Positions 1 to 25,341 of a stretch of DNA of 36,084 bases are shown here, in pieces. This DNA comes from Clostridia bacterium (GTDB lineage Bacteria > Bacillota > Clostridia > UBA1381 > UBA9506). The notes beneath the pieces are model-generated. The model was not told the DNA's origin. It was given only the letters and a program-made list of their open reading frames with translations, and ran no database searches. Every line of letters begins with the position of its first letter. Within the stretch, counting starts at the first letter, position 1. The stretch is from contig JAGBHP010000059.1 of assembly GCA_017935435.1 (NCBI GenBank), forward strand, positions 1-36,084. The letters run 5' to 3'. Both the position numbers and the translations under genes were made by a program.

Positions 1-813
1 CCACATTTCAAGTAGCTTGATGATGGTCTCTTCCATCTTCTGCGGTGTGTAGGAGCGAGGGAAATACTTTCTGATTCTATCCATCGGTAGCTTCAAATCC
101 CAATTTTCGGGTTTCTTCTGCTCCATCATAATATCAAGCACGGCATCATCGTTCAGCTTGCCCTCTTGGGAAAGTCGCCTCATACGCTGGGCTTGTGAGA
201 AAGAGGGCGTTGCCTGTTCGCTGTCGATGGTCTCGATAAGGAGCTTCTGTTCATCGGGTTAGAGATAGGAAATCTCGACTGCAGGGGTCATACCGATTTT
301 GCCTTCATCCACTAACTGCATCAGTTCGGGCTGAAGCTCATTAAGGCGAATGTATCGTCTAATCTGTTCTCGGCTTGTGCCTGCTTCTTCGGCAACTTGC
401 TCCACAGACAACTTCTGCACAGGTTGTGTAGAAGTTAAATCGTGTCGTTTTCCTTGGCGTTTGATGGCTTCAAGTTTCATCTTGTACGCCTTGGCTCGTT
501 CGCTCGGCAAGATGTTCTCTCGCTGTAAATTGCTGTCCACCATCATAATGGTTGCGGTGTTGCGATCTATGTCTCTGACGATAACCGGCATGGTCATAAG
601 CCCTGCAAGCTCACAAGCGTGTTTGCGTCTGTGTCCTGCAATCAGTTCATAGCCGCCGTCCTCACGAGGTCGGGCTATTGCAGGAGTGAGTACACCATAT
701 TCACGGATGCTCTCTACCGTCTGTTCCATAGCTTCATCGTCTCGCACACCGAAGGGGTGGTCTGGAAATGGGTGAAGTTCACCCAAAGGAATATCCTTAA
801 TTGTTTCTTTCAT
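1..813 (-). pseudogene. ParB/Spo0J-like partition protein, interrupted by an in-frame TAA
   Basis: The start is the ATG at 813, with GGAGGTG five bases upstream; the TTG at 825 overlaps that ribosome binding site. Residues 5-110 form a ParB N-terminal domain: a PLGELHPFP opening, the GGYELIAGHRRKHA nuclease/CTP-binding motif near residue 55, and NLQRENILPSERAKAYK. A helix-turn-helix follows around residues 130-165 (SVEQVAEEAGTSREQIRRYIRL). A TAA at 259-261 ends translation after 184 residues. The same frame stays open downstream with ParB-like sequence (PDEQKLLIETIDSEQATPS, later RKYFPRSYTPQKMEETI) to the window edge. This looks like a nonsense mutation in a once-longer gene rather than a natural end. 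The N-terminal product could still be made. A sequencing error is the main alternative. Confidence 0.75.
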
Positions 814-841
814 TGGCACCTCCAAGTCCTTAGAAATGACA

Positions 842-879
842 AAAGGCGTTCATTGAATCAGAAGTCAATGAACGCCTTT
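842..879 (-). repeat. Perfect 15-bp inverted repeat in the parB leader
   Basis: The arms at 842-856 and 865-879 are perfectly complementary, with an 8-base loop. The hairpin lies 30 bases upstream of the parB start. On the minus strand it is followed by only a short T tract (TTTTG), so it could be a leader terminator/attenuator, or a DNA site for ParB or another element protein. A 7-codon ORF on the minus strand starts inside the second arm. Function is not determined. Confidence 0.5.
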
Positions 880-946
880 ATGCGTTTATTCGGTTTAATT
901 GCTGCTCCTCCTTTCTCAGCTTGGAGCTGTTGTGATGGCAGCCTCA

Positions 947-1072
947 TCACGGCTTGGGGTATTGATGAAATTGGACAAAAATCAGCGAAAACCCCGTGTT
1001 TTCAAGGCTTCTGACCTTTGCCCCTATTATAACAGAAGAGTCTATTCGTCTAACAATTCCTGTTGCTTTCAT
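947..1072 (-). pseudogene. spoVT: 5' fragment of spoVT (AbrB family) fused to element sequence
   Basis: A minus-strand ATG at 1072 is preceded by AAAAGGAG ten bases upstream. It encodes MKATGIVRRID, the characteristic N-terminus of SpoVT, the forespore AbrB-type transcription regulator. In intact SpoVT the next residues are approximately D/E-L-G-R-[IV]-V-I-P. Here the frame continues as SSVIIGAKVRSLENTGF and stops at the TGA at 947-949, giving a 41-residue hybrid. The break is therefore at or just after codon 11 (about 1040). The rest of spoVT should lie at the far end of the element, outside this window. AbrB itself starts similarly, but the exact RRID match favours SpoVT. Confidence 0.75.
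987..1003. repeat. Perfect 6+5+6 palindrome near the element end
   Basis: GAAAAC (987-992) and GTTTTC (998-1003) flank a 5-base centre, about 40 bp inside the inferred junction with spoVT. A dyad this close to an element end could be a recombinase or excisionase arm site, or a partition site. It does not match the B. subtilis parS consensus. Only the symmetry is observed. Confidence 0.35.
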
Positions 1073-1204
1073 ATATAATTTGCTCCTTTTAAACATGGGT
1101 TGACAGCAAATCAACCACTACAATTTTTACTTGTATTTTTATTGTACGCAGACAAGGAATTTTTATGTAAAGAAAAAATTGGGAAATTATTTTTTTGCCT
1201 GATA

Positions 1205-1266: not shown

Positions 1267-2043
1267 ATGGATACACAAAAGGTAATTGAACTTGTAAAAC
1301 GAACAAAAGATATAATACTTGACAAAAAGAAAGCGGCAGAAATTGAAGTAAAGGGTTACGGCGATTTTGTAACACAGGTGGATTTTGCGGTGCAAAACTT
1401 CCTTTTTGGCGAGCTTTCATCGCTTTATCCCGACATTCAGTGCGTGGGCGAGGAAAGCGATAATAAAAACACAGATTATGATAAATCAATGTGGATTTTA
1501 GACCCAATCGACGGAACGGCAAACCTTGTCTACGGACTTAATCAAAGTGCGGTTTCGCTTGGACTTGTTAAAAACAGAGAACCTGTATTTGGCGTTGTAT
1601 ATAACCCTTTTTCAGATGAGCTTTTTTGGGCAGAAAAGGGTAAAGGTGCGTACTTGGGCGATAAAAAAATTTCTGTGACAAATGCTAAAACCTTGTCAGA
1701 TAGCTTAATTAGTGCAGGCACATCGCCGTATTACAAGGGGCTTGCAGAAGAAAATTTCACCGAAATGTGTGAGGTTTTTAAAAGATGTTTAGATATCAGG
1801 CGTTTTGGTGCGGCGGCAATTGACCTTTGTAATCTTGCCTCGGGCAGAATTGACGGTTATTTTGAAAAAAGGTTAAAGCCTTGGGATTATGCGGCGGGTG
1901 CCATAATTGTACGTGAAGCAGGCGGAAAAATAACTAACTTTGATTTGGGCGAAATTGCTTTTGACAGACCTGATGACATAATTGCAACCAACTCAAATAT
2001 TCATTTAGAGCTTGCAGAGCTTTTAAAAAGCGTAAAAAGATAA
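1267..2043 (+). CDS. Inositol monophosphatase family protein (SuhB-like)
   Basis: A 258-residue protein of the metal-dependent, Li+-sensitive phosphatase family, which hydrolyses inositol-1-phosphate or related sugar and nucleotide phosphates. The diagnostic motifs are in order: GEES (metal-binding Glu, about residue 66), DPIDGTANL (metal-binding Asp pair, about residues 81-89), and WDYAAGAIIVREAGG in the C-terminal half, with the third metal-site Asp in WDYA. Length is normal for the family and no signal peptide is seen, so it is cytosolic. The ATG at 1267 has AAGGAG seven bases upstream; an upstream in-frame TTG at 1195 lies before the promoter and is not used. It is monocistronic, with a hairpin terminator directly after the stop. 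The true substrate (inositol-P, 3'-phosphoadenosine-5'-phosphate (PAP) or another phosphate ester) cannot be told from sequence. Confidence 0.9.
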   Translation: MDTQKVIELVKRTKDIILDKKKAAEIEVKGYGDFVTQVDFAVQNFLFGELSSLYPDIQCVGEESDNKNTDYDKSMWILDPIDGTANLVYGLNQSAVSLGLVKNREPVFGVVYNPFSDELFWAEKGKGAYLGDKKISVTNAKTLSDSLISAGTSPYYKGLAEENFTEMCEVFKRCLDIRRFGAAAIDLCNLASGRIDGYFEKRLKPWDYAAGAIIVREAGGKITNFDLGEIAFDRPDDIIATNSNIHLELAELLKSVKR

Positions 2044-4225: not shown

Positions 4226-5068
4226 TTGAAGATAACTGCATTTTTACTTATTTTTACACTTTTAATTTCAGGTTGTTCATCAAAAAATGTATTTAAAGAT
4301 GAAATTGCAGATGAAGTTTGGAACGATAAAGCGATTTCAGTCACAAATGAGCTAAATCCCAACGGATATGCATCTCTTCCGAACAAGGTTTGCGGTTGGG
4401 GTCTTAAAAAAAACTTAAATGCACCGCCCGAAGTTCCGCAAAATATCATATCACTTTTAGAAAAATATGACTCGTATTATATAGGAAAAGATACAGAAAA
4501 AGTTTTGTATTTAACCTTTGACGAAGGATATGAAAACGGATATACCGCAAAAATTTTAGATGTTTTAGAAGAAAAAGAGGTGCCCGCCGCATTTTTTATA
4601 ACAGGACCGTACTTAAAAAAAGAAAAAGAGCTTGTAAAGCGTATGGTAGATGAGGGGCATATTGTTGGAAATCACACAGTAAATCATCCATGTCTGCCTG
4701 AAATTGACAGTGCAGAAAAAATAAAAAAAGAGCTTTTTGATTTAGATGAAGAATTTTACAAAGAGTTTGGAAAAAGAATGAAGTTTTTGCGTGCACCGAG
4801 AGGTGAATTTTCAGAAAGGACACTTGCGCTGACAAATGATTTAGGGTATACAAATGTTTTCTGGAGTTTTGCTTATAAAGATTGGGAGGTAAACAATCAA
4901 AAAGGAGCAGAGTATGCGTATAAAGAAATTATGAAAGGTACATTTCCGGGTTGCATACTTTTGCTTCATGCGGTTTCTAAGGACAATGCAGAGGTTTTAG
5001 GGCGTGTTCTTGATGACTTAAAAAGTGACGGTTACGTTTTTAAATCACTTGAAAATCTTGTAAAATGA
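4226..5068 (+). CDS. pdaA: PdaA-like peptidoglycan N-acetylmuramic acid deacetylase, lipoprotein
   Basis: A NodB-type polysaccharide deacetylase needed in Bacillus for making muramic delta-lactam in spore cortex. The N-terminus has a lipobox (LISGC, Cys17), so a membrane lipoprotein outside the forespore or cell membrane is expected. Catalytic motifs are TFDEGYENGYT (Asp99), GNHTVNHP (His150, His154), LRAPRGEFS and LLLHAVSKDNAE. The segments DW-VNNQKG-YAY and FKSLENL are close to B. subtilis PdaA. The start is a TTG at 4226, with GGGGG seven bases upstream and no suitable ATG nearby. It is followed by spoIVB 71 bases later. The second residue after the catalytic Asp is Glu where PdaA has Asn, a minor difference. 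Confidence 0.9.
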   Translation: MKITAFLLIFTLLISGCSSKNVFKDEIADEVWNDKAISVTNELNPNGYASLPNKVCGWGLKKNLNAPPEVPQNIISLLEKYDSYYIGKDTEKVLYLTFDEGYENGYTAKILDVLEEKEVPAAFFITGPYLKKEKELVKRMVDEGHIVGNHTVNHPCLPEIDSAEKIKKELFDLDEEFYKEFGKRMKFLRAPRGEFSERTLALTNDLGYTNVFWSFAYKDWEVNNQKGAEYAYKEIMKGTFPGCILLLHAVSKDNAEVLGRVLDDLKSDGYVFKSLENLVK

Positions 5069-5139
5069 AGTTTTAATTTCTAAACATATTTTTGTAAGGC
5101 GCAGGCAAACATAGCTATTGAAAGTAACAGGCATAGGAG

Positions 5140-6387
5140 ATGAAAGCATTGCAAACCCTGCGTCTAAAAAAACGCTTGATAATTTTCTTTACGCTGATTT
5201 TAGCAGTTGCGCTTACGATAGGTGCGGAGCTTAATTTAAGATATCCGCACGAAATGAACCTTTATAGTGGCGAAAGGTTATATGCACGCGAGGGACTTCC
5301 GTATACGCTCGAAATCCCTGCAAATATTGGCGGTGTGCTATTAGACGACGGCAAAGTTAAAAGAGATACATCACTTTTAGAAAACGATTACAGCGCAAAA
5401 TTAAAGCTTTTTGGCATAATTCCTGTAAAAACTGTAAACGTAAACGTTTTAGAGGAAAAATCTCTTACAGTCAGCGGTAAAACAATCGGCATAAAGATGT
5501 TCACAGAGGGTCTTTTGGCAGTTGGAATAAGCGACATAACAGATATAAACGGCAAAAGTCATAATCTTGGCAATCTGTATGGTATAAAAACAGGGGACAT
5601 TATCCTTTCAGCAAACGATAAGACACTTTTTAATACCGAGGATTTGGCTGACGCAATTGAAAATTCGAAAGATAGTATTAATCTAACGATTAAAAGAGGG
5701 GATAAAACCTTTCAAAAAGAAGTCTATCCAATTGAAACCAAAGACGGCTTAAAGCTTGGCATTTGGGTGCGTGACAGCACTGCAGGCATTGGAACACTTA
5801 CGTTTTTAGATGGGGATACATTGTCATTTGGCGCACTTGGTCATCCTATTGCCGATAGCGACACAGGCGTTTTAATGCCTGTATCAAGCGGAACTATTTG
5901 CGATGCCTCGGTAGTTGGAGTAAATAAGGGTGAAGCAGGCATTCCGGGTGAGCTAAGAGGGGTTTTTAAAGGCGAAAAAAGCCTGATAGGCGAAATCGAA
6001 AAAAATACTGAGCAGGGAATTTTCGGGAAAATAACTGACTCCTGCAAATATCTAAACGGCGAAAGCTTCCCAATATGCTCACGTAACGGAATATCCGAGG
6101 GAAAAGCTCAAATTCTTTCAAATATCGACGGCGAAAAAATCGAATGCTTTGATATAGAAATTGAACGTGTTATGAGATATAATATTGATAATTATAAGGA
6201 TTTAGTAATTAAAGTTACAGATAATAAACTACTCGAACAAACAGGCGGCATCGTTCAGGGAATGTCAGGTTCACCCATCCTGCAAAATGGCCGAATTGTG
6301 GGAGCTGTAACTCACGTTTTTGTAAATGACCCGACGAGAGGGTATGGGATATTTATTGAGAATATGCTCACTAAAGTTGAGAACTAA
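5140..6387 (+). CDS. spoIVB: SpoIVB serine peptidase (S55), sigma-K checkpoint signal
   Basis: A 415-residue secreted or anchored protease which, in Bacillus, is made in the forespore and triggers pro-sigma-K processing through SpoIVFA. Order of parts: an N-terminal membrane segment (about residues 11-28), a PDZ domain (about 110-195, with LYGIKTGDIILSAN), then the S55 domain with FGALGHPI (His235), VTDNKL (Asp361) and GMSGSPI (Ser376). These match the known His/Asp/Ser triad. The start is uncertain. The ATG at 5140 directly abuts AGGAG, whereas a TTG at 5149 has the same AGGAG nine bases upstream and may be the real start. It may be cotranscribed with pdaA and is followed by a strong terminator. 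Confidence 0.93.
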   Translation: MKALQTLRLKKRLIIFFTLILAVALTIGAELNLRYPHEMNLYSGERLYAREGLPYTLEIPANIGGVLLDDGKVKRDTSLLENDYSAKLKLFGIIPVKTVNVNVLEEKSLTVSGKTIGIKMFTEGLLAVGISDITDINGKSHNLGNLYGIKTGDIILSANDKTLFNTEDLADAIENSKDSINLTIKRGDKTFQKEVYPIETKDGLKLGIWVRDSTAGIGTLTFLDGDTLSFGALGHPIADSDTGVLMPVSSGTICDASVVGVNKGEAGIPGELRGVFKGEKSLIGEIEKNTEQGIFGKITDSCKYLNGESFPICSRNGISEGKAQILSNIDGEKIECFDIEIERVMRYNIDNYKDLVIKVTDNKLLEQTGGIVQGMSGSPILQNGRIVGAVTHVFVNDPTRGYGIFIENMLTKVEN

Positions 6388-22989: not shown

Positions 22990-25341
22990 ATGACAAATGA
23001 AGAAGTAAAAGTTTATTCGAAAGAAAAAACAAAAAAAGTTAGTGCGGAAGGGTTTATTGAAAAATTGAAGCGGACAGGCTACGGAGAACTTTTGGAGTAC
23101 GCAGTTATGTTTACGCTTTTTAGCGTAAGATTTTTGGGAAACCTTTCACCGCTCGGAATTGCTTATTTTGCGGCGGCTTTTCCAACTCAAAGGCGGAACT
23201 TTGGCATATTTTTTGCTTGCCTCGGTGTAGTTTTCGGAAGGTTTGGAATTGAAAGCCTCAAATATATGGGCGCAGTTGCAATTGTGTCGGCTTTTTCGAT
23301 TTTTCTAAAAGAGGAAATTGCAAATAAAAAGGTTTTGTATGGACTGCTGGCATCTCTTAGCATTTTATCAAACGGCTTTATTTATGTAGCGTTTGACGGC
23401 TTTTTGGTTTACGACATTTTATTTTTGATGCTCGAATCAATTATAGCATTTTTTGCATATTTTGCATTTGAAAAGTCGGTATGTCTTATTCGTACCGTAA
23501 AAACAAGGAATTATTTTGAAACGGAAGAAACGCTTAGCTTGCTTATTTTATGCGCAGGAGTTATTTTAGCGCTTAAAAATCTTCCGTTTTGCACGCCGCT
23601 TGCGCATATAATTTCTATTTCGGTACTGCTTGCTTTAGGATATTCAAGCGGAGCGCAAGGCTCAAGTGCGGCAGGAATTGTGCTTGGACTTGTAAATGCG
23701 TTGGGAGAGCCGCTTGCAGCACAAACTGTAAGTGTTTACAGTCTTTGCGGATTTGGCTGCGGTATGTTTAAAAGTAAGGGAAAATGGGCGGTATGCCTTA
23801 GTTTTTTAGTTATAAACGCATTTTTTATGATGTACTTTAATTCGTCAATGGATAGACTGCTTACTGTTGGCTATATTGCAGTTGGTACTGCCGTTTTATA
23901 TCTTCTTCCTGCATCTTTTTTAATGAGATTTGGTGAAATCGCAGAAAGTGCAGATAACACCTCTTTTTCGCCGCAGGAACGGCTTAAAGAGGTACTGTGC
24001 GATAAACTTAAAAGCGCATCAGTATCTTTTTCAGAACTTTCGGGAATATTTTCAAAAATAGTTGACTCAAAGCTTACGCCTGAGCTTTGCGATATAGATA
24101 GAGTTTATGACAGAACCTATAACGCAGTTTGCAAAAACTGCTCGATGAATAAGTATTGCTGGCAAAGCAAAGCAAATGATACATACGATTGCCTTGGGAA
24201 AATGCACGAGATGATGAAGGTGAGAGGCTATGCAATTGATATTGACGCACCAAAGCATTTTAAGGAGTATTGCATAAATTTCAACGAATTTTTGCTCACT
24301 TTAAATAAAGAATATGAAAAATTTCGTCTAAATCTTATGTGGGCAGGAAAAATAATCGAAAGCCGCAAGCTTATATCTGACCAGTTTGGTTGCATTTCAA
24401 GCGTTTTGGGAAAAATAAAAAAGGATGTCGGCAGTGATTTTGCCGAAAATATAAGACTTGAAAGAAAAATCCTTACATCGCTTGATAAAAAGGGAATTTT
24501 GGTAAGCAATGTATGTGTTTTAAATAATTCAGGCTATGAGGTTACAATGTCAAAGGACAGTTGTAACGGAAATTTGGAATGTTCAAAAATAATCGCATCG
24601 ACAGTAAGCGAAATTTTAGAAGTTCCGATGCTTAGAGTTAACAGAAAATGCTCAGGCGATGTTTGCAGACTTCGCTTTTGCGAGCAGGCACGCTTTAAAA
24701 TAGAAACAGGGAGCGCAACGGCGAAAAAAAGCGGAGAAAACAAAAGCGGTGACAGTTTTTCGTGTATGTTTATGCCCGACGGGAAATATGTCTGCGTTTT
24801 AAGTGACGGCGCAGGGAGCGGAAAAAGGGCAGGCGCTCAAAGTGCGGTAACTGTTGAGATGCTAAAAAGACTTTTAAACGTGGGATTTGACAAAGAAACA
24901 TCGGTAAGGCTTATTAACAGTATTTTAATATCAAATAACGAAAAAGATGTTTTTGCAACGATTGATATATGCATTGTAAATCTCTATACAGGAACGGCAG
25001 AATTTTTAAAGACAGGGGCGGCACCGTCTTATATTAAAAAGGTAGATAGCGTAGAAGAAATTTCCTGCTCTTCTATCCCTGCAGGGCTGATTCCGGGAGA
25101 AAAAAGCGACTGTGCATACAGAGAAATTAAAAATGGCGAATACATAGTTATGGTAACTGACGGAGTAATTGAAAGCATCTTGCAAACGGGCAAAAAGCTT
25201 TCGGATATTTTAGGCTCTTTTTCGGGCGAAAGTCCGCAGATGGTTGCAGATGCTATAATGTCTTTTGCTGTTGCTGCATCAAAAGGCAGTCTTAAAGATG
25301 ATATGACGGTTTTTGTAATTAAAGTGAGCGAGGAAATGTAA
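22990..25341 (+). CDS. spoIIE: SpoIIE, stage II sporulation serine phosphatase
   Basis: A 783-residue membrane phosphatase that dephosphorylates SpoIIAA to release sigma-F in the forespore and also takes part in polar septation. Order of parts: a basic N-terminal tail, a multi-pass membrane region (about residues 40-310, roughly ten hydrophobic segments including LLEYAVMFTLFSVRFLGNLS), a central regulatory region with a Cys cluster (CKNCSMNKYCW, about residues 384-394), and a C-terminal PP2C domain (about residues 570-783). The PP2C metal-site motifs are VCVLSDGAGSGKRAG, VMVTDGVIES and LKDDMTVFV. The ATG at 22990 follows GAGGAGG. The gene is monocistronic, preceded by a Spo0A-type promoter and diverging from the nine-gene operon. 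Confidence 0.96.
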   Translation: MTNEEVKVYSKEKTKKVSAEGFIEKLKRTGYGELLEYAVMFTLFSVRFLGNLSPLGIAYFAAAFPTQRRNFGIFFACLGVVFGRFGIESLKYMGAVAIVSAFSIFLKEEIANKKVLYGLLASLSILSNGFIYVAFDGFLVYDILFLMLESIIAFFAYFAFEKSVCLIRTVKTRNYFETEETLSLLILCAGVILALKNLPFCTPLAHIISISVLLALGYSSGAQGSSAAGIVLGLVNALGEPLAAQTVSVYSLCGFGCGMFKSKGKWAVCLSFLVINAFFMMYFNSSMDRLLTVGYIAVGTAVLYLLPASFLMRFGEIAESADNTSFSPQERLKEVLCDKLKSASVSFSELSGIFSKIVDSKLTPELCDIDRVYDRTYNAVCKNCSMNKYCWQSKANDTYDCLGKMHEMMKVRGYAIDIDAPKHFKEYCINFNEFLLTLNKEYEKFRLNLMWAGKIIESRKLISDQFGCISSVLGKIKKDVGSDFAENIRLERKILTSLDKKGILVSNVCVLNNSGYEVTMSKDSCNGNLECSKIIASTVSEILEVPMLRVNRKCSGDVCRLRFCEQARFKIETGSATAKKSGENKSGDSFSCMFMPDGKYVCVLSDGAGSGKRAGAQSAVTVEMLKRLLNVGFDKETSVRLINSILISNNEKDVFATIDICIVNLYTGTAEFLKTGAAPSYIKKVDSVEEISCSSIPAGLIPGEKSDCAYREIKNGEYIVMVTDGVIESILQTGKKLSDILGSFSGESPQMVADAIMSFAVAASKGSLKDDMTVFVIKVSEEM

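Follow-up and report, generated by a model that had tools for sequence, protein, structure and literature searches.

The 5′ end of spoVT in a Clostridia genome is probably the integration site of an ICE

The window, i.e. the whole stretch of 36,084 nucleotides analysed here, is contig C26 of a 1.08-Mb MAG with a completeness of 67%. A mobile element end, a truncated spoVT and a host flank with sporulation genes follow one another along it:

1..1040, minus strand: left end of the element, within which the contig stops; sequence running across the junction matches locus L024 at 92% identity and L025 at 83%
1..813, minus strand: parB-like gene of the element (PF02195, PF17762), with an in-frame TAA at 259-261
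842..879, minus strand: intrinsic-terminator-like hairpin of 15 pairs, between the predicted attP promoter and parB; the inverted repeat is also found in L024, L026, L027, L034/L104 and L048
858..947, minus strand: possible 29-codon leader peptide (MRLPSQQLQAEKGGAAIKPNKRIKAFIDF) 5′ of parB (ORF 858-950), the 3′ end of which overlaps the terminator stem
1017..1033, minus strand: GTTATAATAGGGGCAAA, repeated in inverted form 127-129 bp in from the opposite element end (exact in F. pullistercoris; diverged in RGIG3070, G313 and L172)
1026..1031, minus strand: TATAAT, predicted -10 half of a promoter completed by circularisation (TTGACA-N17-TATAAT in 4/4 rejoined attP)
1041..1042, minus strand: crossover dinucleotide GA (attL core), all that attL and attR of four elements have in common
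1041..1072, minus strand: spoVT 5′ stub, codons 1-10 and the GA of codon 11 (MKATGIVRRI-D); relatives have a complete SpoVT here
1140..1169, minus strand: sigma-G-like site of spoVT, TACATA-N17-TACAATA, kept upstream of the stub; the block is conserved in relatives, and the match in the window is weak
1267..2043, plus strand: inositol monophosphatase family gene (PF00459), host flank, divergent from spoVT
4226..6387, plus strand: host sporulation genes pdaA and spoIVB, with spoIIE at 22990-25341 (TIGR02884, TIGR02860 and TIGR02865, all above cut-off)

Read on the minus strand from the ATG at 1072, the frame starts with MKATGIVRRID and continues into SSVIIGAKVRSLENTGFSLIFVQFHQYPKP up to a stop at 947. 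Between 1040 and 1090, the DNA shares 86-95% identity with the beginning of spoVT in relatives from the same family or order, confirming the proposal of a first-pass annotation that this short frame is the beginning of SpoVT. In ten of these relative loci, the frame stays open and encodes an entire SpoVT (about 180 aa), and one such protein aligns over its full length with the solved SpoVT structure 2w1t. In a pattern search, C26:1041-1072 was the sole start of this kind within the MAG. In most relatives, 60-75 nt separate the ATG from the best sigma-G-like match upstream of it. The change in GC and gene content noticed at the junction also holds: GC is about 0.48 over positions 1-1000 and decreases to 0.32-0.41 from 1001 on, and a domain search found ParB_N (PF02195) and HTH_ParB (PF17762) on the left side. 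The presence of spoIVB, spoIIE and pdaA assigns the host to a spore-forming lineage. An Rfam search of the window returned no family.

Scanning genome contigs with the window ParB yielded two further loci, L024 in Oscillospiraceae RGIG3070 from goat rectum and L025 in Candidatus Faeciplasma pullistercoris from chicken gut, in which the corresponding element end is joined to the very same spoVT base. The genes upstream differ among the three (ferritin-like, signal peptidase, inositol monophosphatase), and integration on three occasions at a single base pair indicates a site-specific element. Together with the ten relatives carrying a full SpoVT, this recurrence bears out the earlier claim of a mobile element inside spoVT. 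Insertion at the same spoVT codon, with a 2-bp GA overlap, was found in at least seven genomes or contigs, window included; in a class-level sample, this codon-11 family was present in 2 of 391 genomes. L026, L027, L034/L104 and L048 match just the inner part of the left end, up to 878. Searches with the left-end DNA gave no second copy among 95 genomes of the order and weak matches only across the class. A DNA search of plasmids had no match; the attL pattern had none in IMG/VR and, as an exact pattern, none in carrier genome G239. Matches to phage records were partial, concerned gut contigs without annotation and covered mainly the parB region; they were discarded. Genome G467 (RGIG3070) contains two different 5′ ends of spoVT, interrupted at codon 11 (L024) and at codon 35 (L116), respectively, and flanked by different neighbours; it probably represents two strains or species in one bin.

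The left attachment site reads ...ATNGA|C... and the right one TTGACA-N6-GA|YGAYYTNGG. In L025/L107 and L166/L157, the third base of codon 11 is C in attL and T in attR, so that the two sites share GA alone and the overlap is the GA dinucleotide. With the crossover at the GA of codon 11 (1042-1041), the element starts at 1040.

The first-pass annotation expected the remaining spoVT codons and a recombinase gene at the far end of the element. This arrangement was found in relatives; the 67%-complete window MAG itself yielded neither a matching recombinase nor the spoVT remainder, the search for codons 12 onward returning only a short AbrB paralog (80 aa, intact, one copy). RGIG3070 and F. pullistercoris each have a separate contig with spoVT from codon 11/12 on, preceded by large serine recombinases. 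A far end with a recombinase next to spoVT codon 11/12, again in the same orientation, was found in L107/L113, L112/L114, L156, L157, L171 and L172; L156 and L157 came from a search of the class with the outer recombinase (51% and 46% identity, both ending at spoVT codon 12), and L171 and L172 from a search of IMG/VR. The F. pullistercoris end carries three tandem recombinases of 602, 567 and 523 aa with Pfam Resolvase, Recombinase and Zn ribbon domains, preceded by a PemK/MazF-like toxin gene and a DUF6870 gene. Three adjacent recombinases with Resolvase/Recombinase domains are present in each of L113 and L172, which belong to relatives and not to the window MAG.

In the phylogenetic tree, the spoVT-targeting recombinases form one clade with a support of 1.0. 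More distant recombinases (<40% identity, L158-L165) are located outside spoVT and were rejected as spoVT-targeting. One member of the clade (L128:6480-6700), with 46% identity to P0001, has a gene other than spoVT as its insertion site, and beyond the GA the sequence of that gene (GACCAGCTGGGATACGTGG) resembles the spoVT target; the specificity for spoVT is therefore strong, not absolute.

Both ends of an element are found on the IMG/VR contig behind L172 (G475, 64,246 bp): attL spans 1030-1061, and attR, which has the same orientation, is located near 63,734. The approximately 62.7 kb between them encode a PF02534 VirD4 protein, a VirB4-like ATPase (TraG P-loop), a PF03432 MobA/VirD2-type relaxase, a topoisomerase, three serine recombinases and a restriction system recognised by eye. 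Since conjugation genes lie between attL and attR, this element is an ICE and not a phage.

Four congeners of G239 have an intact spoVT, which answers the earlier suggestion to make a comparison with a relative lacking the element, and relative to the nearest of these copies the cut spoVT of G239 has dS 0.14 and dN 0.003 (dN/dS 0.02). The spoVT remainder is conserved and open to its stop in L107, L156, L157 and L172, which fits a recent insertion and a regular restoration alike. In-frame stops 5′ of codon 12 in L112 and L156 indicate that the element provides no general replacement start. Given the same orientation of both spoVT halves and the intact relatives, precise excision would rebuild the gene.

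When the two ends were joined in silico, TTGACA-N17-TATAAT appeared in 4/4 elements with both ends known, the 17 spacer bases being variable. Of 12 promoter positions, 12 match in attP with a 17-nt spacer (4/4), compared to 9-11 in attL, where the spacer is 15, 16 or 19 nt long, and to 7-9 in attR; attL and attR have just one good hexamer apiece at the right distance, and a promoter scan of the integrated window gave no minus-strand site at TATAAT. Circularisation is therefore predicted to form a perfect consensus promoter facing parB, and the conservation of TTGACA and TATAAT may come in part from recombinase binding motifs. Downstream, the overlap of leader and hairpin at 842-950 and the occurrence of the hairpin in related elements suggest attenuation. 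The TAA at 259-261 of the window parB corresponds to a lysine codon in the L024 copy (96% identical), the remaining frame being open to the contig end; the window copy, with its in-frame stop, may be decaying. At the other end, L107, L112, L157 and L172 have a conserved CCTATTATAACA-like copy 127-129 bp before the attR core, inverted relative to the left end, which is perhaps an accessory recombinase or directionality-factor site.

A second family of insertions lies further into the gene. In RGIG3070, a second cut (GDP|SQTS...) ends the spoVT piece of codons 12-35, and the portion of spoVT from codon 35 on continues the reading frame of another serine recombinase (P0005: recombinase + SpoVT_C). 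A class search gave six relatives of this recombinase, five of them with the same in-frame fusion (701-760 aa). Altogether, fusions of 651-760 aa at about codon 35 occur in six genomes (L115:2247-4202; L178-L182; L114/L116; L171), the recombinase frame crossing the attachment site. A matching left end is found in L171 and L109/L116. Five genomes with these fusions showed no MKATG start by a strict pattern, their contigs breaking within the element. This family was present in 5 of the 391 genomes of the class-level sample.

We therefore propose, with a probability of roughly 0.87, that the window feature is the attL of an ICE that integrates site-specifically into spoVT through a recombinase acting at the codon-11 GA. 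That the window element has the same far end as its relatives, like the loss of SpoVT function, the excision, the promoter activity and their timing, is what we infer. The large serine recombinase outermost in the triplet would join attP to attB at this GA, attB being a sequence within the conserved spoVT 5′ end. The integrated element would sever spoVT from its promoter, its ribosome-binding site and its first 11 residues, which belong to the AbrB-type DNA-binding domain; SpoVT should then not be made. Precise excision would restore spoVT under its own promoter and circularise the ICE, bringing the right-end TTGACA to 17 nt from the left-end TATAAT; the resulting promoter would read via the leader and the terminator-like hairpin into parB. 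Since it would arise on circularisation, element functions would be on only in the circle. Integration would thus leave spoVT off and the element quiet, while excision would rebuild spoVT and activate the parB promoter.

Other origins of the junction were weighed against this proposal. A chimeric assembly, with the end of a common ICE wrongly attached to the beginning of spoVT, would suit a MAG contig that ends within a widespread element, but a junction at the identical base pair in two independent assemblies with different upstream genes shows that it is no assembly accident, and its recurrence with diverged ends in G313 and G475 also argues against this origin, which is hardly credible. It is highly improbable as well that the stub derives from another gene of the AbrB family: MKATGIVRR[IV]D is common to the AbrB paralogs, and the MAG holds the intact 80-aa one, but the stub and its upstream DNA match the SpoVT locus of relatives and all far ends found run into SpoVT (in L112 and L171 with a second cut at codon 35). 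A plain gene disruption, with no active excision and a permanently SpoVT-negative host, would account for the start and ribosome-binding site always being removed by the insertion, for the in-frame stops before codon 12 in L112 and L156, and for the stop in the window parB. Against it stand the full recombinase triplets and conjugation genes of relatives and the retained frame of the cut spoVT, and we consider it rather unlikely.

The first-pass annotation also drew an analogy with elements inside sigK, spsM and other sporulation genes that are excised during sporulation. In a skin-like model of this kind, a sporulation sigma factor or a directionality factor would trigger excision and spoVT would be rebuilt in each forespore. 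The split of spoVT by a mobile element with both halves co-oriented agrees with it; the forespore nature of spoVT does not. The genes spsM, spoVFB and yabG belong to the mother cell, where DNA loss is terminal. So do sigK and gerE, and in skin/sigK, SPbeta/spsM, vfbin/spoVFB, gin/gerE and yin/yabG the gene is rebuilt by excision of the element (PMC5595907, PMC10747680). By contrast, spoVT serves as a sigma-G (forespore) reporter (PMC12589092), so that sporulation-linked excision would be heritable, and the analogy in timing therefore needs experimental proof. Timed excision is favoured by the location in a sporulation gene, by the open and conserved remainder in L107, L156, L157 and L172, and by the sigma-G-like promoters that carriers L024, L166 and L184 still have 5′ of the stub. 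However, upstream of the recombinase operon, we found a sigma-A-like site (TGGATT/TGGATA-17-TATAAT) and no sporulation-sigma match above shuffled sequences, conserved attB DNA accounts for the choice of target, and a recent insertion can explain the open remainder, which makes such timing possible, if doubtful. A more speculative and distinctly improbable reading sees in the ICE the germline equivalent of skin, leaving spoVT in the forespore, persisting as a partitioned circle in the spore and re-entering spoVT at germination. If true, SpoVT would be made while the attP promoter newly drives parB, and the plasmid phase of the element would be tied to sporulation.

Under the proposed integration of an ICE at codon 11, spoVT looks like a hitherto unrecognised hotspot of integration in gut Clostridia, to which two unrelated families of serine recombinases have recourse. 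Conjugative spread would be tied directly to normal spore formation, spores being the host-to-host form of many gut anaerobes. The locus lends itself to testing whether recombination controls a forespore gene, and it provides a series of new serine integrases sharing one highly conserved target sequence.

Searches of the open-access literature found no described case of spoVT with an intervening element, an attB, or an insertion site or prophage, in agreement with the first-pass annotation; papers with both spoVT and ICE were, by title and abstract, general works and were not retained as precedent. What appears new is spoVT as an ICE target, since triplet-integrase ICEs are already known. Streptococcal ICEs with a serine-integrase triplet insert in mutT, traG or hsdM (PMC4701971) and, as here, carry the three neighbouring integrases at one end, in the orientation of the target gene, which is disrupted; they have 2-8 bp direct repeats and Tn1549-type or other conjugation modules. 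The present elements differ by their target, spoVT in gut Clostridia, and, as far as described there, by the predicted attP-spanning promoter and the expected consequence for sporulation. They resemble skin, SPbeta, vfbin, gin and yin, in which a serine-recombinase element splits a sporulation gene that is rebuilt by precise excision; gin, moreover, is non-viral and has three serine recombinases (PMC5595907, PMC10747680). Unlike these, the target here is the forespore gene spoVT and the element is a conjugative ICE found across several genera. In Tn4451/Tn4453, as reportedly established by Lyras and Rood in 2000 (cited in PMC13023037), tnpX is served by a promoter that arises where the ends of the circular intermediate meet, whereas the one predicted here faces parB, away from the recombinases. 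Like the present family, the TnpX of these elements has a 2-bp target (PMC3158075). Finally, the codon-35 family recalls the rumA ICEs, which have a single serine integrase and swap the 3′ parts of the target gene and the integrase (PMC4701971); the rumA swap alters both frames, whereas the recombinase frame at spoVT codon 35 continues in frame into SpoVT.
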